This document shows, piece by piece, positions 7,216-37,678 of a DNA stretch of 39,432 nt. The DNA comes from a virus. The translations under genes were made by a program, and so were the position numbers. The first letter of the stretch is position 1, and every line of letters begins with the position of its first letter. The stretch is taken from positions 1 to 39,432 of IMG/VR virus record IMGVR_UViG_3300042557_000501; one strand, written 5' to 3'. The notes below the pieces were generated by a model. It had not been told where the DNA came from, searched no databases, and worked only from the letters and a program-made list of their open reading frames with translations.

Positions 7216-9268
7216 TATTACATCGCCCGATTTTAGCATTACCAATCAACCTAACGGGATAACCGAATTAACGCACCGTGTATATTACTCAAGTGATTTA
7301 AGCGGTTTTCTTGAAGAAATAAACGGGGATTTAACTTTCTACGGAGCAGACTATACATTCCTTAGACGTGCCTACCTTAACAATTCATGCCGCATTATTC
7401 CATTTGAATTAACAGATGGGTGCGGTTTGGTATTGGACTGCAATATGTTTCTAAACGAATGCGAGTGGCGGCCTGACTTATGCCAAGTCAAAGGGCAACT
7501 TGTAGATGGTGGGTTCTTATCGCTTATTGACCAAAACATGGCAATCAAAGCCTATGTGAATGTGGGGCGGTCAAAGAACGATGTTGATATTTCTTCAAGT
7601 GCTGTGGAGCAAACCGACCTATTTTACTACGGGCAAAACCAACAAAGCGGGGGCGGTGACATTGCAGCGCAAAACAGGGTAGGCGTTCGCGTTTACGATG
7701 CCTTTAAGATGCTTGTTGCCTTTATGACTGATGGGGCTTTGGGGTTTGAATCGGACTTCTTTAGACCCGATGACTTAGGGCGTGGTTATTACACGCTTAT
7801 CACAGGCAATTCGTTAAGGACGGGCGATGTAAATAGTTGGCCGCTTATTTCATTTGAAGAACTTTATACTGATTGTCAAAGGCTTTTTAACTTATCATTT
7901 GCAACGGAAACGGTGGGCGGTGTTAGGCGTTTAAGGATTGAGCCGACTTCATTCTTTAGGCAAACCAACGCTTCGATAACACTTGCCGACCCTGACGCTG
8001 TTACCCAAACATCAAACGAAAAGAGTTTTTACCAAAAGATTGAGTTTGGTTCAAATAAGTTTAGCGATGCCAATTTCGACTATTTTCCAAATGCTACCTT
8101 TTTGGGATTTAGAGAGGAAGAGTTCCATTTAGGTGGGCAATGCAATACGCGCAATGTTTTAAAATTACAAACAGAAACTTTAATTTACGACACCAACCGA
8201 ATTCAAGCCGCGTTACCCGTTGCAAGTGGTGGGGCTGCCGACCCTGACAATATATTGGATGAGGACATTTACATCGTTCAACATTATTCAGATAATTCAG
8301 TTGCCAACACGCCCAATCCATTAAGCCCGACCGTTAATGTTTACTTTAATGAGATATTAAGTAACTACAATATCGCGCTAAGGTGGGGAGATGGAATACC
8401 TTACCCGATATATTTGTTTTTAGGATTGGCGCAGAACTTTGCTACTGGGGTGTTAACAATCACAAACTTTTTGCTTGCTGGAATTGGAGTATTTCGGTAC
8501 GTTTTAGGTGGCGATAGTAATTTTGGTTTATTAGAACCTTTGCGGCAAATTGTTAATTGTAATGATGATACCTTTCCGCTTGGAGAAGACCCGAACGGAA
8601 ACTATACTATTCAGTTAGCAACACCTTCAGCGCTTAACCCCGCATGGAGTGGCCCGAATCCTTACAACCTTTTAGGTGGACGATATACCGCACCGTTTGA
8701 TGCAGTTTACGTTTGCAAATTTGAGGGTATAACTTACATTGAAACACAAGATCCAGCGCAAATTTTCGGTTTTGGCATGGCATTTCAAGTGTTTAATAGC
8801 TTTGATGTATTTCAATACGAACACTATTGGTTCAAAACATCGCAGCCTAATGCTGTTGGATTTGGAACGGCAAGTAATCAATGGGACGTAAGCGTTCCTT
8901 TGTTTATGAACACGGGTGATTATGTTATATTGACCATATTTGACCCTAAAGATTTAACATCTGATGGTGACGGGTTAGATTACACCATTATTTATATTCT
9001 GAACGGGGCAAAGTTTATAGTTGAAGATCCTTTAGGCGGTCAATGGGCAACCTACGACCCGAACGATAATGCTTTAATTAATACCGCCATTAAATATCCA
9101 ATTACTTCGCAAACATGGCAAACCTATCTAAACAATAGGCATGGTATAATATCCGTTCCATTTAACAACGGGGCTATTGAGGGAAGGACAAACGACCTTA
9201 GCCGCAACCTTCACACGGGAATGACCGAGGTCAAAATAGTTAGTACCTTTGGGCAAACTGAAATATGA
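7199..9268 (+). CDS. Distal tail / baseplate protein with C1q-like domain
   Basis: 689 residues directly after the tape measure, the position of distal tail or hub proteins. The N-terminal 130 residues are beta-rich with strand pairs like those of tail-tip scaffold proteins. Residues about 490-600 (YTAPFDAVYVCKF, then NQWDVSVPLFMNTGDYVILTI) resemble a C1q/TNF-type jelly roll, a fold often used in phage receptor-binding parts. The start may be GTG 7199 or ATG 7208; GGAGG sits too close to the ATG to settle it. Upstream overlap is 17 nt. The exact subunit is not identified. Confidence 0.65.
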   Translation: MEDMLSITSPDFSITNQPNGITELTHRVYYSSDLSGFLEEINGDLTFYGADYTFLRRAYLNNSCRIIPFELTDGCGLVLDCNMFLNECEWRPDLCQVKGQLVDGGFLSLIDQNMAIKAYVNVGRSKNDVDISSSAVEQTDLFYYGQNQQSGGGDIAAQNRVGVRVYDAFKMLVAFMTDGALGFESDFFRPDDLGRGYYTLITGNSLRTGDVNSWPLISFEELYTDCQRLFNLSFATETVGGVRRLRIEPTSFFRQTNASITLADPDAVTQTSNEKSFYQKIEFGSNKFSDANFDYFPNATFLGFREEEFHLGGQCNTRNVLKLQTETLIYDTNRIQAALPVASGGAADPDNILDEDIYIVQHYSDNSVANTPNPLSPTVNVYFNEILSNYNIALRWGDGIPYPIYLFLGLAQNFATGVLTITNFLLAGIGVFRYVLGGDSNFGLLEPLRQIVNCNDDTFPLGEDPNGNYTIQLATPSALNPAWSGPNPYNLLGGRYTAPFDAVYVCKFEGITYIETQDPAQIFGFGMAFQVFNSFDVFQYEHYWFKTSQPNAVGFGTASNQWDVSVPLFMNTGDYVILTIFDPKDLTSDGDGLDYTIIYILNGAKFIVEDPLGGQWATYDPNDNALINTAIKYPITSQTWQTYLNNRHGIISVPFNNGAIEGRTNDLSRNLHTGMTEVKIVSTFGQTEI

Positions 9269-10896
9269 GCCTCGATTTAATCCCATACCAGCCGTTACCC
9301 TTTGGATTAGAGGACAACTGCACCCTTCCATGTTATGAGGGATGGATGCAAAAGATACAAGGCAGCACAGACGTTACATCCGTTCAATTTGCATACGGGG
9401 CGTGCGCTAATACGTTCAGCGAAACAATAGACGGCAACTTTACGGGATCTGGAGTTGATTGGATACAAGGCGGATTGTGGACGTTTCCCGATACGCGGGC
9501 TGTTAGTCCAATAGGCGGTGCTGGTTATATTCGGCAAGCAATAGCCAATGCAAGCGGTTTATATTACGAACTGGAGTTTACAATTGTGGTAAATAACGGG
9601 CTAATGTTGCTGAACTTTAGCGATGGAACAATCATTCCCTATTCAGCAAGTGGAACGTATACCTACACGTTTGAAAGCGTGGGCAAGACTTACGTGGAGT
9701 TCTTTTTCAATTCAGCGTTAGGGGGTACGGTTGCTAATGTTATAATGAAGCCGATTTTAACGCGGGTTAAGTTGGGGTTATTTTATCAAGATGGCACGTT
9801 TTTAGCATTTTTAGATGATCCAATATATGCTGCCGTAACCTACAACAACGGATTTTTAACGTATAACATAAATTGGAACGGGCTTGGTTTTCCCGAAGGT
9901 TGCCTTTACTTAGCCGCTTACGACCCTTGCCAATGCTCGCAGTTTGGATTTGCTGGTGATGACTTCCAAAGCCAAGCGCAATGGGATGTATACGCGGGCG
10001 GTGATGACTTAATTGTTATCACAGGCGGAACGATGCAAGCAAGCGCGATTACCCAAGCTGCCCACTATGTTAGGCGAAGGGATGTTCTTTGCCGAGATGT
10101 GGCGTACACAATCACGTTCACCATTAGCGGAATGCAAGGAACTGACACGTTCCAATTCGCAGCTGGGTTAACAAGCGGAACGATATACACAACGGACGGA
10201 ACTTATACGGAGGTAATAAATCCAACGTGGACAAACGATGACCCGTTGGATTTGAGGTTCTTATTCCTGTTGGACATTGCTACTTTGCATTTCGTATTGA
10301 TTACCGATTTCACTATTGAAGCAGTTGAGCCTATCGTTACCTATCGAAGCGTGGCGTTTGAATTGAAAGATACCTTTTGCCAATGCACGGTACTTGTATC
10401 CGCTTGCGGAAATGATGACCAGTTTAATATGGGATTTGTTGGCACAGGATTTAACCCGTCTATTCGCTTAGAATCAACTTTGAGGACTTCAAACTATCCA
10501 ACTACCCGTGAAGCCTATGAGTTCAGCACAGGGCAAAAAAAGACTACCTATATGCGTACTCGAAAGGCGCGGTCTTTTGCTTACGGTGCGCCCGAATACG
10601 TGCATGACTTTATACGGTTAACGCTTGGGTTTGATAACGTCTACTTAGATGGTAGGGCTTCATTCTGCGAAGATGAAGAACCGCCATCGATAAGCTGGAG
10701 CGATGAAGTGGATTTCGGAGTTGCTACTTACACGTTCAGCGATGCCATAGAATTAACCGAGAAACGACCTTGCGCAGACGGTGTGCCTTTGGGATGCGAC
10801 ATTAATGGTGTCGAATTGGAGGTAAACGTAGGCACACGCAAGCCAATAATAAACACATCAACAGGCAAGACAATAAACATACCTAAACCGATATAA
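9265..10896 (+). CDS. Tail-tip protein with two carbohydrate-binding-like modules
   Basis: 543 residues, starting in an ATGA junction with the previous tail gene. Two similar beta-sandwich blocks, about 50-165 and 240-355, each start with a F-x-D/G-W-type pattern (NFTGSGVDWIQGGLWTF; DDFQSQAQWDVYAGGDDLIV) and run through aromatic strands, like inserted carbohydrate-binding modules. Cysteine pairs (CQCSQF, CQCTVL) border them. The C-terminal part (TREAYEFSTGQKKTTYMRTRKA) is a conserved-looking phage tail segment. A surface-glycan-binding tail-tip role is inferred from fold-like patterns and position. Confidence 0.6.
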   Translation: MSLDLIPYQPLPFGLEDNCTLPCYEGWMQKIQGSTDVTSVQFAYGACANTFSETIDGNFTGSGVDWIQGGLWTFPDTRAVSPIGGAGYIRQAIANASGLYYELEFTIVVNNGLMLLNFSDGTIIPYSASGTYTYTFESVGKTYVEFFFNSALGGTVANVIMKPILTRVKLGLFYQDGTFLAFLDDPIYAAVTYNNGFLTYNINWNGLGFPEGCLYLAAYDPCQCSQFGFAGDDFQSQAQWDVYAGGDDLIVITGGTMQASAITQAAHYVRRRDVLCRDVAYTITFTISGMQGTDTFQFAAGLTSGTIYTTDGTYTEVINPTWTNDDPLDLRFLFLLDIATLHFVLITDFTIEAVEPIVTYRSVAFELKDTFCQCTVLVSACGNDDQFNMGFVGTGFNPSIRLESTLRTSNYPTTREAYEFSTGQKKTTYMRTRKARSFAYGAPEYVHDFIRLTLGFDNVYLDGRASFCEDEEPPSISWSDEVDFGVATYTFSDAIELTEKRPCADGVPLGCDINGVELEVNVGTRKPIINTSTGKTINIPKPI

Positions 10897-18720: not shown

Positions 18721-19809
18721 ATGTCACAATCATTGTGCGAAATCGTAACTTGCCCAGCAATACAGAACTCTTTGGATTCTGCTTTTGCTAATCAAAACAA
18801 TATGGCTCCCATTGCGTTGCCATTCCTTACCCACGTAATGAGCGAGGGTAACCGTTCAGCATCAACAATCAAAGGCTTAACAGGCGCGTCTAAAGTGCGT
18901 CAGGTCGAGATTGTTTATGACCAACCCTTCCTAACCTCCGACATCAACGAGAATACTTCTGGTTGTGCGGCTAGTCACACCGAATGCGACTTTGTTGAAA
19001 CTTACAGCTTTGACACGTCTTTGAACGTAGGTAAGGACTTCACAGTTAGCCCTTCCGATTTGGTTGGTACTTGCGAAGAAAATAGCGCATTTGTTGCCCG
19101 CAAAGTTCAAAAGATTATAAACGGAATTAAGGAGAAAGAAAGTGAGCGCCTTGCCCTTGCTGCTGCTACTCAATTCGGTGGATGGTCAAAGGACACTGGT
19201 GATATTCTTGGAACTAACCTTAGTGGTAACATTCTTCAGGTTAATACCACTTTGGCAAACGGAACGGATGCACGTCCTGTTAACTCTGCTTTGTTTGAGC
19301 AAATTCAAACCGCTCTTTTGATGAGCCGTATTAACGGTGCTTCAATCTTTGGAGCGAATGAGTTGGCAAGCTACTTGCGTAAGGCAATAGCTGGTGGTTC
19401 ATCTGATGGACTTGGATATGACTTGATGGCAATTATCGAGCGTTTCGGTCTTGCCGCGGTTTATGACCGTCATTTGGCCAATGCTTTGGTATCGGTTAAC
19501 GCTACTAACCTTGCCGTTGGTCTTGGTTCTATCGTTCCAGTTGGATTTAGCTTGTACGAAGCTGACTTCAATAAGTTGTCGGATTCTTCCAACATCGCAG
19601 ATACCATCTTCGATCCAGCTACTGGCATGAAGTTCGACTACCGTATGCAACGCCTTTGTGATGATTGGAACATCAACATACGTGCAACATACCAATACTA
19701 CACAGCCCCAGCATACCTTTACCAAGTTGGCAGCAACTTTGAAGGAGTAAAAGGACTTGCAGCGTTGGAAGTAGTTTGTACTGATTTGGCTGCTTGTGCA
19801 GAAGGATAA
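18721..19809 (+). CDS. Major capsid protein
   Basis: 362 residues, directly after the scaffold-like gene and followed by a strong terminator. The N-terminal arm (residues 1-50, MSQSLCEIVTCPAIQNS) has two cysteines; the middle shows an extended loop-like region (VEIVYDQPFLTSDINENTSGC) and a long helix VARKVQKIINGIKEKESERLALAAATQFGGW as in an HK97-type spine. The C-terminal FDYRMQRLCDDWNINIRATYQYY fits the P/A-domain strands. The codons (frequent GGT, CGT and CTT) differ from neighbours and suggest high expression. Fold assignment is inferred. Confidence 0.8.
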   Translation: MSQSLCEIVTCPAIQNSLDSAFANQNNMAPIALPFLTHVMSEGNRSASTIKGLTGASKVRQVEIVYDQPFLTSDINENTSGCAASHTECDFVETYSFDTSLNVGKDFTVSPSDLVGTCEENSAFVARKVQKIINGIKEKESERLALAAATQFGGWSKDTGDILGTNLSGNILQVNTTLANGTDARPVNSALFEQIQTALLMSRINGASIFGANELASYLRKAIAGGSSDGLGYDLMAIIERFGLAAVYDRHLANALVSVNATNLAVGLGSIVPVGFSLYEADFNKLSDSSNIADTIFDPATGMKFDYRMQRLCDDWNINIRATYQYYTAPAYLYQVGSNFEGVKGLAALEVVCTDLAACAEG

Positions 19810-19828
19810 TTGATTAACCTAAAATTGA

Positions 19829-19862
19829 AGGGGTTGGGCTAATACCTAACCCCTTTTTTTTT
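19829..19862 (+). terminator. Rho-independent terminator after capsid gene
   Basis: AGGGGTTGGG (19829-19838) pairs with CCTAACCCCT (19845-19854) in a 10-bp stem with one G-U pair and a six-base loop, followed by a run of nine T to 19862. This would end the transcript from the capsid promoter. Confidence 0.9.
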
Positions 19863-19865
19863 ACT

Positions 19866-19873
19866 TAAATTTG
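19866..19873 (+). promoter_or_regulatory. -7 promoter box 4 nt before ATG
   Basis: TAAATTTG matches TAnnTTTG and begins three bases after the terminator T run, with four bases left to the ATG at 19878. It would restart transcription for the connector and tail-completion genes. Confidence 0.5.
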
Positions 19874-19877
19874 CGAT

Positions 19878-20867
19878 ATGACTTGCTTAGAAACACTTAT
19901 AGGATTGCAAGGGGGTTGTGCCGACATTAGTACGGCTGCAAATACCTACCTAAATACCAAAGTCACCTACTCCGAACTTTCATCTTATGTAGACCAAAAC
20001 GACTACCCAAGCGTTGATGACTTGTTTATCGCGTTACGTAGTCAGGCGGTTCGTGAGGTAATTGATTCGATTACAGCCCACATGAAAGATGGGTTCGTTG
20101 CCAAGACCGTTGTAAGCACTCAAACGATTGGGTACGCTGGTACGTCCTTAGCTACTTCGGCTGCATTGGCGAAGTACAAAGGCGTTAAACTTTGGCGCAA
20201 GTACCCTATGCCTTTCTTAGCTTATCGGGTTACAAGTGTTGGGTTCATCGGTAATTACACGGGCAACGTAACGGTGTTATTTGTGGATGGTATTACGGGC
20301 GTAACTTTAGGAAGTCAGGTAGTTGCCGCGGTGGCTGGTCAAGAAATAAGCGTTGACGTGAACGCATTGTATCGCGTGGAAAAGTTGCTTATCATTTACA
20401 ATGCAAGCGCGATTACAGCCTACAAAACAACCCCAACAACATCGGGGCAAACTTGCTACACTTGCCCGACATCGTGCAGCATAAACGCACACGTGACCGC
20501 ACAGGCAATAACGGCTACAATAGGTGCGCCACTTACCCAATCAACTTTAAGCGACATGGGAGGGCTTATATTGAGCGTATCGATGGAGTGCGATGCGGAG
20601 GGTTGGATGTGCCAGTACAGGCAGCAATTAGCTATGCCAATACTCTTTAAGGTTGCCGAGTTGGTTATGGAATACGCGCTTTACAACACTTCGAGGGGTA
20701 ACACCAACACGGTTCGCGACTATGACAAACTTGTGGCTCGGCAAAGTATGTACCGCGATAATTTCAACACGGCAATGGATAGGGTATTCAATACCGTTAA
20801 CCTACCCAACGACCCGATATGTTTTAATTGCCGACGCGGCATCCAGATTAGAACGACCTTGCCATGA
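19878..20867 (+). CDS. Structural protein, probable head-tail connector region
   Basis: 329 residues following the capsid gene. The N-terminal half is helical (DVDDLFIALRSQAVREVIDSITAHM-type pattern), then a beta-sandwich (GNVTVLFVDGITGV), a Cys cluster (CYTCPTSC) and a C-terminal helical block with CFNCRR. It starts MTCLETL. The place between capsid and tail-completion genes suggests a connector, adaptor or decoration protein; no family was recognised. Confidence 0.55.
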   Translation: MTCLETLIGLQGGCADISTAANTYLNTKVTYSELSSYVDQNDYPSVDDLFIALRSQAVREVIDSITAHMKDGFVAKTVVSTQTIGYAGTSLATSAALAKYKGVKLWRKYPMPFLAYRVTSVGFIGNYTGNVTVLFVDGITGVTLGSQVVAAVAGQEISVDVNALYRVEKLLIIYNASAITAYKTTPTTSGQTCYTCPTSCSINAHVTAQAITATIGAPLTQSTLSDMGGLILSVSMECDAEGWMCQYRQQLAMPILFKVAELVMEYALYNTSRGNTNTVRDYDKLVARQSMYRDNFNTAMDRVFNTVNLPNDPICFNCRRGIQIRTTLP

Positions 20868-20968
20868 TCCGCGAAAGGGATAGGGCTTGCGAGTGGATTA
20901 GTGGCTTAGGTTACTGCCGATTTACACGCACTTATACATCTTTTACTTTTCAGTTATGGCTCAATTAA
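20864..20968 (+). CDS. Small hypothetical protein bridging two genes
   Basis: 34 residues (begins MIRERDRACEWISGLGYC, aromatic-rich C-terminus). It overlaps the upstream stop in ATGA and the next ATG at 20956 by 13 nt, so it covers the only 88-nt gap in this cluster. Translation is supported by these junctions only; it may act as a coupling leader frame. Confidence 0.4.
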   Translation: MIRERDRACEWISGLGYCRFTRTYTSFTFQLWLN

Positions 20969-21513
20969 CGCCCGAACAATTTGCGGCTAAGTTGCGCGAG
21001 AAAGCAAAGGCAATAGCGTTAAACGCACCTTTACAAATTGCAGCGCAATCCGTCCACGCAGATAGGGTAATTCGGATTTTTAGCGATGGCATAAGTGGCG
21101 CGAGTTACAATAAAACAGACGCGCTTTATGTAGCCGACAAGGATTTAAGGCGGGCGGGAACTCACAAAGGCAAAACAGGCAAGCAAATAAAGACCACGTA
21201 TTACCCAAGCTATTACGACCTTAAACAGCAGCAAGGCTTTGACCCGAACACGGTTAATATGCGTTTGACAAACGACTTACAAAGCGACTTTGCAAACTCA
21301 CAGAAAACTAACACAACGGGCGCACCTCCAGTAGGTGAAGTAATTAAGGTAAACAATAATTTATATGTGGAAGCATTGCGGAGGTCGGAGAACGTGGATA
21401 AGCTGAAAGGCAATATAAAGCGTTTCGGTAACTTTGTGGCATTCACTCAAAAAGAGAAAGACGATTTTCAAAGGAGATACGCTTTTGAAATGACAAAACT
21501 ACTTCAATCATGA
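20956..21513 (+). CDS. Tail-completion / virion morphogenesis protein
   Basis: 185 residues with an N-terminal helix (TPEQFAAKLREKAKAIALNAP), a basic middle (KDLRRAGTHKGKTGKQIKTT, YYPSYYDLKQQQGFDPNTV) and NMRLTNDLQSDFANS, a pattern seen in gp10-like virion morphogenesis proteins of Bacteroidetes phages. Those join head to tail or complete the tail end. An ATGA junction follows. The family call is tentative. Confidence 0.55.
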   Translation: MAQLTPEQFAAKLREKAKAIALNAPLQIAAQSVHADRVIRIFSDGISGASYNKTDALYVADKDLRRAGTHKGKTGKQIKTTYYPSYYDLKQQQGFDPNTVNMRLTNDLQSDFANSQKTNTTGAPPVGEVIKVNNNLYVEALRRSENVDKLKGNIKRFGNFVAFTQKEKDDFQRRYAFEMTKLLQS

Positions 21514-23108
21514 CCGAAGCAATAGTAAACTACCTTAATCTTAAACTTGAAACCGTTGGAAGGTTAGGGGTTATTCATTGCCTTGCTGAATTACGGAGTG
21601 ATGGCACGACTACCGTACCCTACGTTTACAGCGGAACTGGGCAAGTAGTACCGATTAACATTGATGGCGGTAACTTGTCTTATTGGAGGATGGATAACCC
21701 AATTAGCTTTGAACCGATTGTTGGAAAATATGGCGTTAATCAAATGTCAGGTACTTACGACCTACGTTTGGTTGTCGTTGCAAGGCGCAAGGATAGCACA
21801 GTAGACGATGCCTTTATGCCAACAAGGTTAGCGGAGGACATCGCTAACCAAATAACGGGCAGCTTTCCCGATTTGAAACTTCTACTCAAAGCCCAATCCG
21901 TTAGCATTAGGGTTAATTCAATAGATACAAACATCCCGAAGATATGGGGCGAAGAATTTACAGGCACGCAAGTAAACGACCTTAATTATACACGGGCTAT
22001 AATGGCCTTAAGCGTTTCGGTAACGGTAATTGGTAGCCGCGACTGTTGGCAGAATGAGTGCGATATTGACCCGAACATTCTGCACATCTTTGACTTTTGC
22101 AATCCTAATGTAGTCGCTGAATTAACGCCAACGCAAGTGGCCTGTTTGGAAGATGCTTTATGCGAACCTTGCTTAGATGCAACCATTGATATTAACGGGT
22201 TGCCATTCGATACCGTTCCAAGCGGAGGAACTTTAGATATTGCAGTTATTGACACGGGTTCAAATCCAGTTGGCTCACAAAGTGGAACGGATTGGGTTAT
22301 CGCCAACAACGCCACGTATATAAATAGCGTTCAAGTTACTGACCAAGCCGCTGAACAAGATGCCTTTATTGCTGTTGAATTAGACGGTAATCCATCGGGA
22401 ACGTGGAATTCTGGTACGCAAACTTGGGAGGTTACAAGCCCACCTTGCGCAGATGGAAACATCGAACTAAACGGTGTGCCAGTCGCTACGGTTGCAAGCG
22501 GAGGCACGGAGGACATTCCTGTACTTTCAGAGGGTTCAAATCCTGTCGGTTCTCTTGTAGGGTCAGATTGGGTAATTGAAAATAACGCCACTACAATAAA
22601 CGGTGTTCAAGTAACCGATCAAGAAGCAGAACAGGATGCGGCTATATTTGTAACCCGTGACGGAGTTCAAAACGGTACTTGGAATGCTGGAATTCAAACG
22701 TGGGAAGTCACCTCCGCAGCCTGTTCACCAGTCACCTTTCAGATAAACGCAGTCAACAAGGAATCCTTGTCAAGTGGTTCTACGTTTAACTTAATCACTA
22801 AGTTAGACGGGGCGGTTAATTCGGGAACGTACGATGCGCCTACGGATACGCTTAGCTTTACAAGTGCAAACGACCTTACCATAAATATATCGGTTGCAGT
22901 TAGCGCGGTTAGTGCCACATTTACAGTAGCCGCAATTACAGCGGGTACAATCACAGCGGTTAACGCTGGAGGTTTGGGTAGCTTTGTAATCAAGAAAAAC
23001 GCTGGAGTAGTTACCGCACCTTTCACAATGGCAATAGCAGACGTTATGTTGTTTGAATTTACGGCAGCCGTAAGCGCAACCACAATAGTATTAACGGGAA
23101 CATTCTAA
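21510..23108 (+). CDS. Tail-terminator-like protein with fibre-type repeats
   Basis: 532 residues. Residues 1-195 look like a small head-tail joining or tail terminator protein (TEAIVNYLNLKLETVGRLGV to VSVTVIGSRDCW). Two tandem repeats of about 92 residues follow, beginning near 225 and 317, each with NG-P/V, SGGT, GSNPVGS, WVI-NNAT, VQVTDQ, AEQDA, GTWN and TWEVTS. A third, degenerate copy begins near 409 (QINAVNKESLSSGSTF), then a hydrophobic Ala/Thr-rich end. Cys-x2-Cys (CEPC) marks the joint. The repeats resemble those of phage fibres. A neck-attached fibre or whisker is inferred. Confidence 0.6.
   Translation: MTEAIVNYLNLKLETVGRLGVIHCLAELRSDGTTTVPYVYSGTGQVVPINIDGGNLSYWRMDNPISFEPIVGKYGVNQMSGTYDLRLVVVARRKDSTVDDAFMPTRLAEDIANQITGSFPDLKLLLKAQSVSIRVNSIDTNIPKIWGEEFTGTQVNDLNYTRAIMALSVSVTVIGSRDCWQNECDIDPNILHIFDFCNPNVVAELTPTQVACLEDALCEPCLDATIDINGLPFDTVPSGGTLDIAVIDTGSNPVGSQSGTDWVIANNATYINSVQVTDQAAEQDAFIAVELDGNPSGTWNSGTQTWEVTSPPCADGNIELNGVPVATVASGGTEDIPVLSEGSNPVGSLVGSDWVIENNATTINGVQVTDQEAEQDAAIFVTRDGVQNGTWNAGIQTWEVTSAACSPVTFQINAVNKESLSSGSTFNLITKLDGAVNSGTYDAPTDTLSFTSANDLTINISVAVSAVSATFTVAAITAGTITAVNAGGLGSFVIKKNAGVVTAPFTMAIADVMLFEFTAAVSATTIVLTGTF
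22180..22731 (+). repeat. Tandem coding repeat, two ~276-bp units
   Basis: Two consecutive units (about 22180-22455 and 22456-22731) encode repeats of about 92 residues sharing long identical stretches such as NPVGS, VQVTDQ and TWEVTS. Protein similarity is higher than DNA identity, which points to an old duplication under selection. Boundaries are approximate. Confidence 0.65.
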
Positions 23109-23962
23109 TGAGTAGACGCGTCAATCTTATTGGGTATAGTTCAGCACCTTTATACTTACCACAGACCATTGCTTATATGGCTGTGACAGGCATACCAGCG
23201 GACGGAACAATTACTATTTATGGAGTTTCAGGATTAAGTGTATGGACAGCCGTTAATAATTTTTTTATAACGGGAGTAGCTGACGGATGGCTTTCTCAAA
23301 TGATGGCTCTTTATTTATACATCGGAGGAACTGCAACAACACATAAATATAACGCGGTTAACCCGTTAGATACTGATGCCGCCTTTAGGGTTACGTGGGC
23401 TGGAACAATAACCCATAGTGCTACGGGGGTTAAGGGTAATGGAGTAAATGGATGGGGAGATACTCACTTAATTTATTCAACCAGTCTAAGCCCTTACAGT
23501 TCTGCAATAGGATATTATAACTCGCTTAATGATTGGTCTGTTGACCGAATGGACATTGGGGCAAGTGGTGGGTATCTGCCCATATTTGCCATTTTTAAAA
23601 GCATAGCTCCGGGCAACGTGTTTGTTGGCGATGGATTAGATTATGGAGCACATAGAATTTTCAGAAACATAGGTTCTGTTACTGGATTATTTGATATGTC
23701 TATTGAAAGCAATGTAATGCAATCTTTAGCTAGAAATGGCGTATTGTTAGGTTCGGTCAATACCGTGCCGCAAACACAATCTAACGGCCCAGCAGTACCA
23801 ATAGCTTTGATGGCACGTAGGGATAACGCAAACCCTGTACAATTCTCTCCAGCTACATACAATATGCACTACATAGCTAAAGGTCTTACCATAGCTCAAA
23901 GGTTAAGTTTTTATAACGCAATTCAAGCACTACAAGTTATTCTAAATAGACCAGCGATATGA
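23108..23962 (+). CDS. Fibre-like protein with lectin-type domain
   Basis: 284 residues, starting in a TAATG junction after the repeat protein. The C-terminal half (NMHYIAKGLTIAQRLSFYNAIQALQ) matches the end of concanavalin/LamG-like domains often found in Bacteroidetes phage fibres, and VKGNGVNGWGDTHLIY resembles its first strand. It probably binds a host surface glycan. No signal peptide. Receptor binding is inferred from the domain and its neighbours. Confidence 0.65.
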   Translation: MSRRVNLIGYSSAPLYLPQTIAYMAVTGIPADGTITIYGVSGLSVWTAVNNFFITGVADGWLSQMMALYLYIGGTATTHKYNAVNPLDTDAAFRVTWAGTITHSATGVKGNGVNGWGDTHLIYSTSLSPYSSAIGYYNSLNDWSVDRMDIGASGGYLPIFAIFKSIAPGNVFVGDGLDYGAHRIFRNIGSVTGLFDMSIESNVMQSLARNGVLLGSVNTVPQTQSNGPAVPIALMARRDNANPVQFSPATYNMHYIAKGLTIAQRLSFYNAIQALQVILNRPAI

Positions 23963-28301: not shown

Positions 28302-28445
28302 CAACCGTTCGGAGTTAGACGCCCGAATGTAAAACGATATGATTCACACATTAAACATCTTGCAAGGGTAAAAACATTACGGGCGGCCATGTCGCGTCTG
28401 TAATTACTGTGCGTCTACACAGCCCTTGCATCTTTGTTATCTCAA
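28302..28445 (+). ncRNA. Structured leader with short leader frame
   Basis: TGCAAGGG (28361-28368) pairs with CCCTTGCA (28423-28430), enclosing hairpin CTGTG/CACAG (28407-28411 with 28418-28422). AGACGC (28317-28322) can pair with either of two GCGTCT copies (28394-28399, 28411-28416), so alternative folds exist. ATG 28339 opens a ten-residue frame (MIHTLNILQG) whose stop at 28369 lies just past the left arm, so a translating ribosome would melt it. This could be a cis-acting control element or a separate small RNA. Confidence 0.45.
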
Positions 28446-30644
28446 ATGAGTAAAATTAGCCTATTCAAAAAGCTACCGTTAAAAGGTCATCCGCATATCT
28501 GCGATGAACTAATGACGATGTTTGACTTCTTTAGTGCCGTTAAGTACGGCCAATGGAAAGACCAAGTTATCGCAATTCGTGGAATTGAAGATAAAAATAC
28601 ACGCGATATGGCTAAAAAAAACCTACCATCCGTCACCATTTCGGGAACTTTTAGAGAAAGGAAAGGCGAATTACTTATTGAGCATAGCGGTTTTTTAGCG
28701 GTCGACATCGATAAGTTTAGCGACAAAACTGAATTGCTGGCCGATGCCTATACTCATGCGTTATTCTATTCTGCAAGTGGAAAAGGTCTTGTTTGCGTAG
28801 TAAAAGTAAACCCCGAAAAGCATAAGGAAAGCTACGCATGGTTATCGAATTACTACTTTACTACTTATGGAATAGTAGTAGATGAAATGCCGAAAAACGT
28901 GGCGTCTCTTAGATTTGTAAGCTACGACCCCGAAATTTTCATAAACGAAAAGAGTAAAAAGTCAGGAGTAAAAGCCGAAAGTCGCGCAAAAATTCAAAGT
29001 ATTCCAGTTGTTTGTCCTCCATCCGTAGCTGGCGAAATGTGTCAGGAGGTTAAGTCTTTGGGTATTGATATTGCGCCCGATTACGAAAGCTATTTGCGTT
29101 TAGGTTTATCGGTTGCGGCTGGCTTTGGTGAGGACGGGCGGTCTATGTTTCATGCCCTGTGCTTTGCTTCGCCAAAATATGATTCAAGTCAGGCCGACCG
29201 AAAATATACTGAATGCCTAAAGACCGTGCCCCGTTCAAAAGTTGGTGTTGGTACGTTCTACTGGATGCTAAAACAAGTTGGCATCCATGCACCTAAAACC
29301 AATAGCCGTTCGGTGCAAGTTGCCGCGATGGGTAAACGTGCTGGCCGACAAATTGAAGGGGTTGTGCAGCAACTTGTAGAAATTGACGGGCTAAGTCAGG
29401 AACAGGCCATGTCGGTTGCCAAAGAGGTTTATAGCCGCGATGACATAGACCTTCGCAAAGTTTCGAGCGACCCCGAAAACTTAATCGAAGGGGTTATGGA
29501 ATGGATTCGCCAAAACCATCCAATTCGTAAAAATGCCATCACTCAAAAGCTGGAAGAAAACGGGCAAGAGGTTAGCAAAGAAAGGCTAAACAGTATCTAT
29601 TTGCGTGGCCGCTTAATGTTTAACACTAAGGATGTAACATTTGATTTAATCGAACGGGTTATCTTTTCAGACTTTACGCATGAATTTAACCCGATAAACG
29701 AATATATTGACCATAACCGATACCGAAATGGCAAAGGTCAACTTGATGCGTTATGTAAAACGATTGCAACGGATAGCCCACACTCCGAAATCTTTATTCG
29801 CAAATGGTGTTTAGGATGGATTGCAGCATTAAACGGCCATCCTGTGCGCTCCGTATTGACTTTAGTGGGTGGACAAAACACGGGCAAGACTGAATGGTTT
29901 AGACGGTTGCCACCTTCACCACTTCGCAAGTATTACGCAGAATCAAAATTGGATGCTGGCAAGGACGATGACATTTTAATGTGTCAAAAGTTATGGGTTA
30001 TGGATGACGAAATGGGTGGCAAGTCTAAACAGGATGAAAAGCGTTTCAAAGAACTAACATCCAAGTCGACATTTAGCCTTCGCGCACCTTATGGCCGACA
30101 TAATGAGGACTACAAGCGTTTAGCGATACTTTGCGGAACATCGAATGAAGAAGATGTAATAAACGACCCAACTGGAAACACAAGAATACTGCCTGTGAGG
30201 GTGCAAAGTATAAACCATGAAGCCTACAATGCTATTGATAAGGATGAACTATTTATGGAGTGCGTTCGGGCTTATGAAAGCGGGGAAAGCTGGCAACTAA
30301 GCCGCGAAGAACTTGCGCTATTGGATAGTGTTGGTGCTGAATTTGAAACGACACCATACGAACGTGAATTGATTTTGTCAAACATTGCGCTACCAAGAGC
30401 GGGGGCTTATACGTCTTTTTGTACGGCCACCGAAATTAAAGACCTAATTGAAACGAGAACAAAGCAAAAGATTTTCAGCATGAAGCGGTTTGGAATGGAA
30501 CTAAAAAAGGTCTTTGGTAAGCCAATTGCAAAGCGTATAAATGGTTTTCCGTGTAAGGTTTATGAAATTATGAAGATGGATGACAACAATCCTACTACAC
30601 GGGAAACGCACGCCACCATTGACATTGATGAACCTCCTTTCTAA
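28446..30644 (+). CDS. Primase-helicase, VirE/BT4734 type
   Basis: 732 residues. The N-terminal BT4734/VirE_N-like region has LAVDIDKF (V86-F91, D87 and D89) and FYSASGKGLVCVV, fitting an AEP-type primase core; a PriCT-2-like segment follows (about 200-280). The C-terminal VirE P-loop ATPase has GGQNTGKT (475-482) and LWVMDDE (516-522). Residues 660-711 form a winged-helix-like tail (TATEIKDLI, MKRFGMELKKVF, NGFPCKVYEI). It would prime and unwind phage DNA. ATG 28446 is used; an upstream in-frame TTG lies within the leader. An origin-like region starts 2 nt after the stop. Confidence 0.85.
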   Translation: MSKISLFKKLPLKGHPHICDELMTMFDFFSAVKYGQWKDQVIAIRGIEDKNTRDMAKKNLPSVTISGTFRERKGELLIEHSGFLAVDIDKFSDKTELLADAYTHALFYSASGKGLVCVVKVNPEKHKESYAWLSNYYFTTYGIVVDEMPKNVASLRFVSYDPEIFINEKSKKSGVKAESRAKIQSIPVVCPPSVAGEMCQEVKSLGIDIAPDYESYLRLGLSVAAGFGEDGRSMFHALCFASPKYDSSQADRKYTECLKTVPRSKVGVGTFYWMLKQVGIHAPKTNSRSVQVAAMGKRAGRQIEGVVQQLVEIDGLSQEQAMSVAKEVYSRDDIDLRKVSSDPENLIEGVMEWIRQNHPIRKNAITQKLEENGQEVSKERLNSIYLRGRLMFNTKDVTFDLIERVIFSDFTHEFNPINEYIDHNRYRNGKGQLDALCKTIATDSPHSEIFIRKWCLGWIAALNGHPVRSVLTLVGGQNTGKTEWFRRLPPSPLRKYYAESKLDAGKDDDILMCQKLWVMDDEMGGKSKQDEKRFKELTSKSTFSLRAPYGRHNEDYKRLAILCGTSNEEDVINDPTGNTRILPVRVQSINHEAYNAIDKDELFMECVRAYESGESWQLSREELALLDSVGAEFETTPYERELILSNIALPRAGAYTSFCTATEIKDLIETRTKQKIFSMKRFGMELKKVFGKPIAKRINGFPCKVYEIMKMDDNNPTTRETHATIDIDEPPF

Positions 30645-30865: not shown

Positions 30866-31471
30866 ATGAAAGGTTATGTGTATTTTTTTCGACAACTTGA
30901 AAGCCCATATGTTAAAATTGGCTACACGAATAATGAAAGTGTATCAATGCGATTTGCGGCTTTCAAAATGTATTCACCTCTTGGGGCTACCATTGATGCA
31001 GTAATTGAATCCTCAAATGCTAAATTATTAGAATCGGAACTTCACGTACGATATGCCGCAAAAAGAGTGTCAGGCGAGTTTTTTCAAATGACATCTGATG
31101 AAGTTGAAGCTATAAGAAGGGCAAATGAAGGCAGCGATGAAAGGGATTTGAGAAATGTAATTGAGGTTTTTATTTCAAGTGGTTCGTGTGATGACATGAA
31201 GAGATTAAAAAATATGATTTTGAAAGTAGCCCCAACATACGACAATACTCAAAAGTTAAAAATTGAAGTTTTAGTTCACGATGTGGTAAACAAAAGATTT
31301 ATAGGCACAAGGTTTACAGCTACTGAGGTTCAAAATTTTTTAGCTGATACCATTGATGACATCGAAGATTTGCCATCACTAAAGCAAATAGGCGAGGTTT
31401 TGAAGTTAACCTACAAAATCAAGTCTTACAAAGTAAACGGTCAAAGTAGAAAAATGTATTCAGTAGAATAA
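30866..31471 (+). CDS. T5orf172/GIY-YIG-type nuclease with wHTH tail
   Basis: 201 residues. Residues 1-95 read as a T5orf172-type GIY-YIG domain (GYVYFFRQ, YVKIGYTN, MRFAAFKMYSPLG, ELHVRYAAKRVSGEFFQM). A linker follows, then residues 151-201 (TATEVQNFL, LPSLKQIGEVLKL, NGQSRKMYSV) that align by eye with the last 50 residues of the primase-helicase. A shared DNA-binding tail suggests both act at the same site, probably the origin-like region directly upstream. Homing-type or nicking activity is possible; I see no proof of catalysis. Confidence 0.7.
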   Translation: MKGYVYFFRQLESPYVKIGYTNNESVSMRFAAFKMYSPLGATIDAVIESSNAKLLESELHVRYAAKRVSGEFFQMTSDEVEAIRRANEGSDERDLRNVIEVFISSGSCDDMKRLKNMILKVAPTYDNTQKLKIEVLVHDVVNKRFIGTRFTATEVQNFLADTIDDIEDLPSLKQIGEVLKLTYKIKSYKVNGQSRKMYSVE

Positions 31472-33417: not shown

Positions 33418-33474
33418 ATTTTAGCTTTTGTATGTTTTAAGATAGTTTAATAGAAAAGAGTAAACGTAGATTTG
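33418..33474 (+). promoter_or_regulatory. Early promoter module B
   Basis: TTTTAGCTTTTGTATGTTTT (33419-33438), TAGAAAAG (33451-33458) and -7 box TAGATTTG (33467-33474). The first block is identical to that at 35724-35743. Drives the methyltransferase fusion and the gene after it. Confidence 0.6.
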
Positions 33475-33501: not shown

Positions 33502-34893
33502 ATGAACCAAGCAAAACTTTTTGAGGACAATGTTAAATTTATTACAGTTGAATCTGTGATAGGGTCGGGCTACGAAAACGATGTAGCTAAATTAGCAATA
33601 CAGGACAAGGTGGCATATCGAGCCGCCCGAAAGAATATGCAAATACACTCCGCTGTTATTTTGCATATAAATGATGAATTTGCGGGATTCTTTACGTTTC
33701 AAATTAACCATGATGCAAAAGAGTTTTGTTTGCTTCAATCGGCTATGGATTTGGACAAAAAGGACAAACAGATTTACGCTAAAATGGTGGGCGAAATAAT
33801 CAAACAAAACACGTTTGGTTATCCAATGGTAATGACTGTTAGTCAAAAGCACGATTTGGAAAACCCTAAAGTATTTGCGCAAATCGGGTTCAAAGAGTAT
33901 TTGAATTTAAGCGGATATTCATACATGGTTTATGGTGAACTAAAACAAGTTCGATTGAAACGCTTAGCCCACGCCACAATGACAAACGTGTGGAACAGCA
34001 CAAAAGGCGATTGGCTTAAAATGAAAAAAGAATGGAACGAAAAAATTGAAGCCGCTGGTGAACGTAACGGTGTTATAAATCCAAAGTATGCAAGCCGTGA
34101 GGGTGCATGGATGGGTGACAATGGAATGTCTAATGTGGTTTTAGCAACGCAAGAAGTAGCGGAGGACGGGACTATAATTGACAAAAAAGGAAAGTCGTTT
34201 AACGGTAACGTATCGGTTTTAGACCCTGTTGCCTGTGAGGTAATACTCCGTTTCTTTATGCCTAAAGATGGCGTAAGGGTTTACAATCCTTTTGGTGGTG
34301 GCGTTCAATTTGGATTTGTAACAGGTGACCACGGCTACGAATACACATCGAGCGAAATACGACAAAACCAATGTGACGCAAACAATGCAATCTGCAAGGA
34401 CTTTTACAGCACGAAATGGGTTAAGTCCGATAGTTCAAAGTTTAAGCCAAAACAGAAATACGATTTGGTTTTTACTTGCCCACCGTATTACCAAGTTGAG
34501 GACTATTTGGACTATGACGGCAAACCGCCCGTAGGTGAGTTGAATGCAATCCCAACTTACGATGAGTTTAGAGATACGCTTTTTGCTGGGTATAAACACG
34601 CTATTGATGCCCTAAATGATAATTGTTTCTTTGTCGTAATGACAGGCGATAGCCGCGATAAAAACGGGGCGTATTATGGTTGCGAAGCGGAGCATGAAAT
34701 TTTCTTCAAGCAACAAGGGCTACACATTTACAATAAAATTATTTATTTGGAGTGTGAGTTTACACGCCTTGCCCACGCTAAAAGAACGCTGCATTATCGC
34801 AAGTTTCCAAAGCGCGAACAAAAGATACTTGTATTTTACAAGGGCGATATGACTAAAATTAAAGAGCGTCACGAAAATATAGGCCGTCTGTAA
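33502..34893 (+). CDS. GNAT-like domain fused to DNA methyltransferase
   Basis: 463 residues. Residues about 10-160 have a GNAT/Mom-like layout (AVILHINDEFAGFFTFQI, VGEIIKQNTFGYPMVMTVSQ, VFAQIGFKEY). The C-terminal part has motif I RVYNPFGGGVQFGF (V260-G267) and motif IV TCPPYY (T325-Y330), an amino-methyltransferase of the N6-adenine or N4-cytosine type. In phage Mu, the GNAT-like Mom protein modifies adenines; here a similar module is joined to a methylase. With the next gene it may hypermodify phage DNA against restriction. It shares one base with the next gene (TAATG). Confidence 0.75.
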   Translation: MNQAKLFEDNVKFITVESVIGSGYENDVAKLAIQDKVAYRAARKNMQIHSAVILHINDEFAGFFTFQINHDAKEFCLLQSAMDLDKKDKQIYAKMVGEIIKQNTFGYPMVMTVSQKHDLENPKVFAQIGFKEYLNLSGYSYMVYGELKQVRLKRLAHATMTNVWNSTKGDWLKMKKEWNEKIEAAGERNGVINPKYASREGAWMGDNGMSNVVLATQEVAEDGTIIDKKGKSFNGNVSVLDPVACEVILRFFMPKDGVRVYNPFGGGVQFGFVTGDHGYEYTSSEIRQNQCDANNAICKDFYSTKWVKSDSSKFKPKQKYDLVFTCPPYYQVEDYLDYDGKPPVGELNAIPTYDEFRDTLFAGYKHAIDALNDNCFFVVMTGDSRDKNGAYYGCEAEHEIFFKQQGLHIYNKIIYLECEFTRLAHAKRTLHYRKFPKREQKILVFYKGDMTKIKERHENIGRL

Positions 34894-35723
34894 TGCGCAA
34901 TTATTCGCACAAAATTTCACTTACGCAAAACTCAAGAGGTATCTACTCGTTAGATACCTCTATTGGGTGCAATAGTGGAATGACAAATGAAAAAGGCGGC
35001 TGTTATGGTGATTGCTACGCTGCAAAATCTGCTAAACTTTATGGGTACGATTTTTCAAAAACGGTACTCCGTGACTTTATAAATGAAAAGCACAGGCGCA
35101 AAATAGTAGATGGAATTAACCGCGTAAAGCTTGATTTTATACGTATTGGAACAAGTGGAGACCCGTCCGAAAATTGGGAACATACCATTAAAATAATCAA
35201 AGGAATTGAGAATTGCAACAAGCAAATTGTGATAATTACAAAGCATTGGACAAACCTAAACCAATCGCAGTTGGATTATTTAACTACGGTGAACGTGTGT
35301 ATTAACACCTCCGTTTCTGCATTGGACAAGCCTAATTTAGTTCAAAACAGTTTGGAGCAATACGAGTTATTAAAACGATATTGCAAGTCGGTTTTACGGG
35401 TTGTTTCGGCTGACTTCAATTTAGAAAATGAAACGGGTCACAAATTGGCAAAGGTTCAATCTGAATTATTCAAAAACGAAAACACGCTGGATACGGTTTT
35501 GAGATTAAATAAAAGAAACGCTTTAGTAACTGATGGCGTGGTGAAAGTTTCTGAAACTACTTTTTTAGGCAAAAAGGCTTTAGTTAGTAAATTCAAACCA
35601 AGTACATATTTTGGCAAGTGTTCAACTTGTCATGAAATGTGTGGGCTAAACATTAAGCCATCAATTCAGCAATATCCAAACAAACGAGGCACAATAAAAC
35701 AATTAAAGTTATTTAAAAAATAA
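34893..35723 (+). CDS. Radical-SAM-like / gp88-like Fe-S protein
   Basis: 276 residues. An N-terminal cysteine cluster C26-x10-C37-x3-C41 (GGCYGDCYAAKSAKLYG) is followed by alternating strands and helices of barrel type (RIGTSGDPSENWEHTIKII, KQIVIITKHW, VNVCINTSVSAL), as in radical SAM proteins and the gp88-like phage family. C243-x2-C246-x3-C250 near the end could bind a second cluster. The spacing is not the usual CxxxCxxC, so radical chemistry is not certain. Translational coupling to the methyltransferase fusion argues for a joint reaction, probably on DNA bases. Confidence 0.65.
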   Translation: MRNYSHKISLTQNSRGIYSLDTSIGCNSGMTNEKGGCYGDCYAAKSAKLYGYDFSKTVLRDFINEKHRRKIVDGINRVKLDFIRIGTSGDPSENWEHTIKIIKGIENCNKQIVIITKHWTNLNQSQLDYLTTVNVCINTSVSALDKPNLVQNSLEQYELLKRYCKSVLRVVSADFNLENETGHKLAKVQSELFKNENTLDTVLRLNKRNALVTDGVVKVSETTFLGKKALVSKFKPSTYFGKCSTCHEMCGLNIKPSIQQYPNKRGTIKQLKLFKK

Positions 35724-35778
35724 TTTTAGCTTTTGTATGTTTTGAAACATTTAATTAGAAACACTACCCCGATATTTG
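35723..35778 (+). promoter_or_regulatory. Early promoter module C
   Basis: TTTTAGCTTTTGTATGTTTT (35724-35743), TAGAAA (35756-35761) and GATATTTG (35771-35778), which lacks the first T of the -7 consensus. The leader contains CAAATAACCACAA (35785-35797), as in module A. Confidence 0.5.
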
Positions 35779-36091: not shown

Positions 36092-36316
36092 ATGAAAGAC
36101 CATTTAGATTACGACATTAACGACATTACCGTTCGTGTTGAGTACTACTTTGAAAAGGGTAGCGAAGGAACAAGGGATGTGCCACCAACACCCGACACGT
36201 TAGAAGTGGATAGCTTCCATTGGAACGGGATGGATGTAACCCAGCTTGTTAACGCTTGGGCATCATTCGAGGTAAGGAATATCGAGGAAGAACTTTTAGA
36301 GAAATTAGGATTATGA
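36092..36316 (+). CDS. Small hypothetical protein
   Basis: 74 residues, acidic, beta-rich start (NDITVRVEYYFEKGSEG) and helical end. Preceded by an A/C-rich leader (AATTAAAACCACAAACAAA). It shares an ATGA junction with the ERF gene, so it is part of the recombination operon. No family recognised. Confidence 0.6.
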   Translation: MKDHLDYDINDITVRVEYYFEKGSEGTRDVPPTPDTLEVDSFHWNGMDVTQLVNAWASFEVRNIEEELLEKLGL

Positions 36317-36858
36317 AAACAAGCGAATCAATTACAAACATAGCCGTTGCCCTACACAAATTTCACGGGCTAATGGGTAAGGTGGGCAAGGATGCTACAA
36401 ACCCACATTTTAAAAACAAGTACGCTTCTTTGAGTAACATCATAGAAGCCACCACACCGCACCTTAACGCGGTTGGGCTATCGATTATTCAGTTGCCTTG
36501 TGAAAGTGGTTTAGAGACAATGCTATTGCATACATCGGGCGAATACATTAGCAGCGTATCGCTCACTCCGTGTAAAGATGCCAGCAACCCACAGGCTTTG
36601 GGGTCGGCTTTGACTTACGCAAGGCGTTATGCTTTGGGCGCGGTCTTATCTTTGAACATTGATGAGGACGATGACGCAAACAGGGCAACGGTGGCACCGC
36701 AAGCACCCGCGCAAAAGATAAGGGCTTGGCTTAACCCTACGCACCCAAAATGGGAAGCTGCAAAGAAAGCCGTAAGCGAAGGAACAACAACGGTAGCCGA
36801 TATTGAAAAAACCTATGCAATAACAGAATCAGACATTAAATTACTTACATCAAAATGA
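36313..36858 (+). CDS. erf: ERF-family single-strand annealing protein
   Basis: 181 residues. KDATNPHFKNKYASLSNIIEA, then GLSIIQLPCE, SSVSLTP and PQALGSALTYARRYALGAVLSL are the hallmark blocks of ERF recombinases, which anneal complementary single strands in phage recombination. The C-terminal 45 residues (WLNPTHPKWEAAKKAVSEG) are a separate helical module often present in Bacteroidetes homologues. ATG 36313 lies in an ATGA junction and matches the family start. Confidence 0.93.
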   Translation: MKTSESITNIAVALHKFHGLMGKVGKDATNPHFKNKYASLSNIIEATTPHLNAVGLSIIQLPCESGLETMLLHTSGEYISSVSLTPCKDASNPQALGSALTYARRYALGAVLSLNIDEDDDANRATVAPQAPAQKIRAWLNPTHPKWEAAKKAVSEGTTTVADIEKTYAITESDIKLLTSK

Positions 36859-37351: not shown

Positions 37352-37678
37352 ATGTCACTCGAAATCAAAGGAAAAATTAAGCTGATTAACCCAACCGAAA
37401 CATTTGGCAGCGGGTTCACAAAACGCGAATTTGTAATTACAACCGCAGAACAATATCCACAGGATGTAAAGTTTGAGGTGGTGAAGGATAAGTGCGACAC
37501 GTTGGATAAGTACAAGGTAGGGCAAGAAATAACCGTTCAATTTAACATTAGGGGAAATGAATACGGTGGCAAGTATTACGTGAGTTTGCAAGCGTGGAAA
37601 ATTGTAGTTGGGCAACAGGCAAGCGCACCTACTCCGCAAGTATTTGAAGAGGAAGAGAATACGACATTACCGTTTTGA
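37352..37678 (+). CDS. DUF3127 OB-fold, SSB-like protein
   Basis: 108 residues. IKGKIKLINPTETFGSGFTK, REFVITT, VGQEITVQFNIRGNEY and YYVSLQAWKI give the DUF3127 pattern, an OB-type fold common in Bacteroidetes and their phages. The acidic end EEEENTTLPF resembles the SSB C-terminal tip that recruits partner proteins. It probably binds single-stranded DNA together with ERF and Gp157. Confidence 0.8.
   Translation: MSLEIKGKIKLINPTETFGSGFTKREFVITTAEQYPQDVKFEVVKDKCDTLDKYKVGQEITVQFNIRGNEYGGKYYVSLQAWKIVVGQQASAPTPQVFEEEENTTLPF

Follow-up and report, generated by a model that had tools for sequence, protein, structure and literature searches.

A GNAT-fold–methyltransferase fusion and its radical-SAM-like partner as a candidate DNA hypermodification module of phages

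Two overlapping genes in a viral DNA stretch of 39,432 nucleotides (IMG/VR virus record IMGVR_UViG_3300042557_000501, positions 1 to 39,432; the whole stretch is referred to here as the window) raise the question of what is achieved by a protein that joins a GNAT-like domain to an amino-methyltransferase and is encoded directly before a cysteine-rich partner. The features of the locus are as follows.

33419..33438, plus strand: first copy of a 20-base repeat, 83 bases upstream of the start codon of the GNAT-methyltransferase gene, a putative promoter or operator
33502..34893, plus strand: GNAT-methyltransferase fusion protein, 463 aa (open frame; PHROG DNA methyltransferase match)
33508..33522, plus strand: QAKLF, an N-terminal QxxLF motif resembling the beta sliding-clamp binding motif (enrichment versus shuffles)
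33532..33933, plus strand: GNAT-fold domain without CoA-binding loop, residues 11-144 (AlphaFold2, PDB fold matches, loop count)
34189..34884, plus strand: N6/N4-type DNA amino-methyltransferase domain (profile matches)
34285..34302, plus strand: NPFGGG, motif I (AdoMet binding), residues 262-267 (conservation of at least 97%)
34474..34491, plus strand: TCPPYY, motif IV (catalytic), residues 325-330 (CPPYY conservation of at least 97%)
34891..34895, plus strand: TAATG stop/start overlap (read from the sequence)
34893..35723, plus strand: radical-SAM-like protein of family RS-A, 276 aa (AlphaFold2 model and Foldseek matches)
34968..35015, plus strand: first Cys triplet, C26, C37 and C41 (C-x10-C-x3-C, GCYGDCYA), proposed radical SAM cluster site
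35619..35642, plus strand: second Cys triplet, C243, C246 and C250 (C-x2-C-x3-C), proposed auxiliary metal site
35700..35714, plus strand: QLKLF, a C-terminal clamp-like motif, RS-A residues 270-274 (strict motif enrichment)
35724..35743, plus strand: second copy of the 20-base repeat, 3' of the module and 5' of the next gene

Both open reading frames were present as originally predicted, with one base common to the two, and a stop/start gap of -1 or -4 was counted in 87 of 93 pairs of partner genes, an overlap of 1 or 4 bases that makes translational coupling the rule among relatives. The pair had also been placed under an early promoter module used elsewhere in the genome; an exact 20-base repeat was indeed found in two identical copies, upstream of the gene pair and of the following gene (chance 0.03), and it may act as a promoter. 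Genes of replication and recombination lie around the module, encoding a VapE-like primase/helicase (28434-30644), a T5orf172/MUG113 protein (30866-31471), an Erf annealing protein (36256-36858) and an SSB (37352-37678). Six large ORFs of the structural half (window positions 7199-10896 and 18721-23962) were without a PHROG match at E 0.001, which sets this phage well apart from those described.

The amino-methyltransferase part, which occupies approximately residues 230-461 of the first protein, was identified through the presence of motifs I and IV and through family profiles. At least 97% of 79 homologues retained NPFGGG and CPPYY, on which the original prediction rested. Homologues of the protein occurred in 156 candidate viral stretches, and it matched PHROG 498 (DNA methyltransferase) with an E-value of 5e-38. 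Profile matches in the PDB included 2zie (E 1e-13), CcrM and PvuII methylase, and the window protein scored 18.6 bits against Pfam N6_N4_Mtase, which is below the cut-off passed by one sibling at 38.6. Both motif regions stand in the opposite order to that of the PDB methylase matches, suggesting that the domain is circularly permuted with respect to these enzymes of the beta class.

The N-terminal domain was modelled with AlphaFold2 from 77 aligned relatives (pLDDT 89.6, pTM 0.83), and both its topology and a Foldseek probability of 1.00 to PDB GNATs place it in the GNAT superfamily; it gave 303 PDB matches at E<=0.001, and the best 50 of these were nearly all GNAT acetyltransferases. The acyl-CoA loop R/Q-x-x-G-x-G/A was missing in 76 of the 77 homologues, its place being taken by a near-invariant EFCLLQSAM stretch, and the domain was therefore classified as GNAT-fold and not as a CoA-dependent acetyltransferase. 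Residues H49, N69, E74, C76 and Q79 were nonetheless kept in at least 75 of 77, and the domain may have a structural role. The predicted GNAT fold was thus upheld by model and matches, unlike a specific kinship with Mu Mom: the matches were to GNATs in general, the CoA loop was missing, and no Mom-labelled protein appeared among the best 50 viral structure matches, several of which are nameless. Mu Mom and the module share a GNAT fold, tied to DNA modification in Mom and probably so in the module; Mom is not known to have a methyltransferase domain or a radical SAM partner. The sole carrier of the loop is a divergent tandem paralogue, the second GNAT-methyltransferase of locus L046 (L046:5254-5871; the contig ends inside it), whose GNAT domain has an intact CoA-type loop, KWKGNGLA, and matches GNAT entries of Pfam and PHROG at the sequence level. 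A search from this paralogue for further GNAT-methyltransferases with an intact loop found only L046 itself.

The second protein had no match in Pfam, PHROGs, NCBIfam or the PDB by sequence and profile searches, and no relative among 50,697 phage records. Its AlphaFold2 model (pLDDT 93.6, pTM 0.90) is a predicted barrel, and the six cysteines of the two triplets were invariant in all 64 non-redundant relatives, in agreement with the cysteine clusters at both ends and the barrel-like body that had been described. With Foldseek, the best match was spore photoproduct lyase, and other radical SAM enzymes (EpeE, OxsB and SuiB) also ranked among the best; the top fold matches were radical SAM enzymes at probabilities of 0.95-0.99, but weak (best E 1.6e-3, TM 0.45). 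The family is called radical-SAM-like because the invariant spacing of its first triplet is C-x10-C-x3-C and not the canonical CX3CX2C. Like spore photoproduct lyase and the DUF5131-like radical SAM proteins, RS-A combines a barrel with a Cys triplet behind the first strand and, C-terminal to this triplet, YA, GDP and TK motifs; it differs from them in its longer Cys spacing, in its second, C-terminal invariant Cys triplet and in always accompanying a GNAT-methyltransferase. DUF5131 matches of two relatives (L077 and L052) were weak and non-significant.

Functional coupling of the two genes is supported by a neighbourhood survey of 84 non-redundant GNAT-methyltransferase ORFs, fetched irrespective of the second protein, in which a radical-SAM-like gene stood beside or was fused to 81 of them (family A in 71, a second family, B, in 10). 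The three entries without a partner were two L046 ORFs, where a second GNAT-methyltransferase follows, and L064, where the upstream side is cut off. Where at least 2.5 kb was available on both sides, the partner was present in 38 of 38 loci, and other neighbours of the window recurred in no more than 7. In the reverse direction, a GNAT-methyltransferase was found in 59 of 61 non-redundant family-A loci, the other two being interrupted by contig ends. Furthermore, the wider set contained 15 single-chain fusions with the radical-SAM-like part N-terminal; complete ORFs among them encode approximately 730-830 residues. These counts come from related sequences and so overstate independence; strong conservation, near-obligate pairing and fusions are far beyond chance.

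In the ten family-B (RS-B) loci, the downstream slot is filled by a protein with the motif CQHDCxYCYA, a true CX3CX2C, and all four RS-B proteins tested passed Pfam Radical_SAM (33-44 bits; cut-off 29.5). Alignment of the two families with hhalign was weak (E 4.7e-4, probability 33%); the Cys, GDP/TD and TK motifs lined up, as did motifs of later strands. A methyltransferase tree, from which we take no more than the single origin of the GNAT clade and the repeated exchange of partners, gave the clade a support of 100 and had the A/B partner state switching approximately 13 times, with many forks weakly supported. The strongest reason to regard radical SAM chemistry as part of the function is that enzymes of this one superfamily replace one another in the slot. 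The predicted radical-SAM-like identity of the second protein is accordingly backed by its fold, by motifs that line up with those of a true radical SAM family and by its repeated replacement by that family. Twenty-five family-B loci without a GNAT-methyltransferase (within L274-L339) have a stand-alone ParB-domain gene nearby, which suggests a second modification or targeting context for this family.

Short motifs resembling QL[SD]LF, the textbook beta-clamp motif, were found at the flexible ends of both proteins. Just N-terminal of the GNAT domain, a QxxLF-type motif occurred in 64 of 77 separate and 10 of 14 fused homologues, compared with averages of 2.3 and 0.33 in shuffles; the QAKLF of the window protein departs from strict QLxLF. 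The strict form was present in 13 of 45 RS-A tails (shuffles, 0.23), the motif of the window protein being QLKLF, and a clamp-like tail was carried by 8 of 15 RS-B proteins paired with a GNAT-methyltransferase (two fragments excluded) versus 1 of 61 unpaired ones (Fisher p 3e-6, uncorrected for kinship). Among sibling methyltransferases with a ParB domain, the N-terminal motif occurred in 1 of 74. In eukaryotes, the C5-methyltransferase DNMT1 is coupled to the sliding clamp PCNA through a PIP box; the module, through its candidate clamp motifs, would share the idea of a DNA-modifying enzyme on a sliding clamp. A literature search found no publication on clamp-bound phage DNA methyltransferases.

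The siblings just mentioned are the nearest known relatives of the methyltransferase and have a ParB domain where the GNAT domain stands. These phage ParB-methyltransferases (PHROG 498), including Listeria B054 gp77, Enterococcus phiFL3A gp36 and Croceibacter P2559S gp66, have a homologous methyltransferase domain (27-37% identity, same motif order) and often a partner gene that overlaps downstream, as in the GNAT module. Some of the loci examined had an AdoMet decarboxylase as this partner, others a PLP enzyme or a different gene, and some had none. A SpeD-like AdoMet decarboxylase overlapped or adjoined the ParB-methyltransferase in 25 of 71 loci (L095, L097, L125, L128, L131, L145 and L154 among them; Pfam E 6e-15 for the one tested), a pairing that might serve to aminopropylate DNA from decarboxylated AdoMet. 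Two of the 71 loci also contain a family-B radical SAM gene, and L172 combines such a gene with ParB-methyltransferase and AdoMet decarboxylase. The ParB-methyltransferase chain of Pseudanabaena phage Pam4 contains an inserted PLP-dependent enzyme (L100:2012-4501), and separate PLP (PALP) genes follow the ParB-methyltransferase in L105 and L146. Directly 3' of other ParB-methyltransferases lie a conserved nameless gene (CFSCGNA ... DATSGH; L103:901-1407, L133:4121-4609 and L150:4303-4830) and a PP-loop-like AFSGGKDCLAT protein (L129:4507-5661 and L142:1959-3143), the copies of L133 and L129 being without a Pfam match. Judging by this variety, methyltransferases of the family may often use altered donors or cooperate with a second enzyme.

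It is conceivable, if rather unlikely, that the GNAT module works in the former way, the radical SAM protein altering AdoMet and the methyltransferase domain passing the changed group on to DNA, by analogy with the supply of CmoX by CmoA (PMC12783734). This precedent, the decarboxylases and PLP enzymes beside the siblings and the proposed supply of ParB-methyltransferases by the decarboxylase all speak for such a donor. Yet spore photoproduct lyase, whose fold is the closest, acts on DNA and does not have AdoMet as its product, and an AdoMet decarboxylase, sought in the window on the example of the siblings, was absent there and from all 118 GNAT-methyltransferase loci, so that the module, having neither a ParB domain nor a SpeD gene, does not belong with the decarboxylase systems. 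Ornithine or arginine are also possible substrates of phage AdoMet decarboxylase homologues (PMC10407285), and the altered-donor idea is thus not proven. The CmoA/CmoX/CmoY carboxymethylcytosine pathway of Synechococcus phage S-B43 resembles the module as a multi-enzyme base hypermodification of phage DNA resting on a methyltransferase fold; it differs in its C5-cytosine enzyme, its SPPC motif and its Cx-SAM synthase, and the text of the paper mentions neither GNAT nor radical SAM (PMC12783734). The window protein has TCPPYY in place of SPPC, and no CmoA-like match was found among ten genes scanned beside the module.

Plain amino-methylation, in which the GNAT part would have degenerated into a scaffold or a DNA-binding domain and the radical SAM protein would have a role of its own, would agree with the loss of the CoA loop and with the position of the GNAT domain, which, standing where the siblings have ParB, may serve targeting. 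We regard it as improbable, given the near-obligate pairing, the fusions and the repeated partner replacement inside the radical SAM superfamily, as well as the retention of GNAT residues such as H49 and C76. Still less probable is a pair that edits instead of building, its lyase-like protein reversing a DNA lesion or alkyl mark: spore photoproduct lyase, the best RS-A fold match, is a DNA repair enzyme and family B matches a PHROG labelled DNA repair photolyase, but the lyase match is weak and nothing would explain a repair enzyme that travels only with a methyltransferase. That the GNAT domain modifies RNA or a host protein such as RNA polymerase, with the remainder auxiliary, is very improbable despite the phage GNATs known to modify host proteins (phiKMV Rac, cited in PMC7824862), as the CoA loop is absent, the methyltransferase clade is of the DNA type and the clamp-like motifs point to the replisome.

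The reading that we favour, with moderate confidence, is that of a phage DNA hypermodification module with three enzymatic parts, tethered to the clamp and working in several steps, which probably adds a complex chemical group to phage DNA during replication. Next to the domains, conservation, near-obligate pairing, fusions, partner exchange and motif enrichment observed directly, this model has components that we infer, namely DNA as the substrate, the order of the steps, clamp binding and a protective role. The methyltransferase domain would alkylate an exocyclic amino group, either adenine N6 or cytosine N4, and the spore-photoproduct-lyase-like radical SAM protein would abstract a hydrogen and so functionalise the installed group or the base; a two-step base modification, as the original prediction proposed, is a reasonable inference. 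The GNAT-fold domain, its CoA loop lost, might finish or handle the product without ordinary acetyl-CoA binding. Through the QxxLF motifs of its two proteins, the module would be held at the beta sliding clamp of the host, and we propose that DNA is thereby modified while it is replicating, which could protect it from host nucleases. More tentatively, the module may represent a widespread pathway coupled to replication, where a clamp-tethered DNA amino-alkyltransferase installs a group that is elaborated (or supplied) by a radical SAM enzyme together with a GNAT-fold domain independent of CoA; the resulting base would be one not so far described from nature.

Metagenomic phages contain relatives, as do contigs assigned by binning to Bacteroidota, Thermodesulfobacteriota and Spirochaetota. 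Many lineages within these phyla are anaerobic, and such hosts would suit oxygen-sensitive clusters. An entry of the viral structure library that is 88% identical over the GNAT domain carries the name 'Uncharacterized protein', and no published description of the combination of GNAT-methyltransferase and radical SAM protein was found in the literature searched, with an earlier mention possible in a 2013 survey of complex DNA modifications (doi 10.1093/nar/gkt573). For the ParB-type relatives that adjoin AdoMet decarboxylase genes, aminopropylated DNA is predicted. Should this model of the module prove right, radical chemistry and replisome tethering would join the means by which phages disguise their DNA, and the fusions that occur naturally as one chain would offer an enzyme that is convenient to study.
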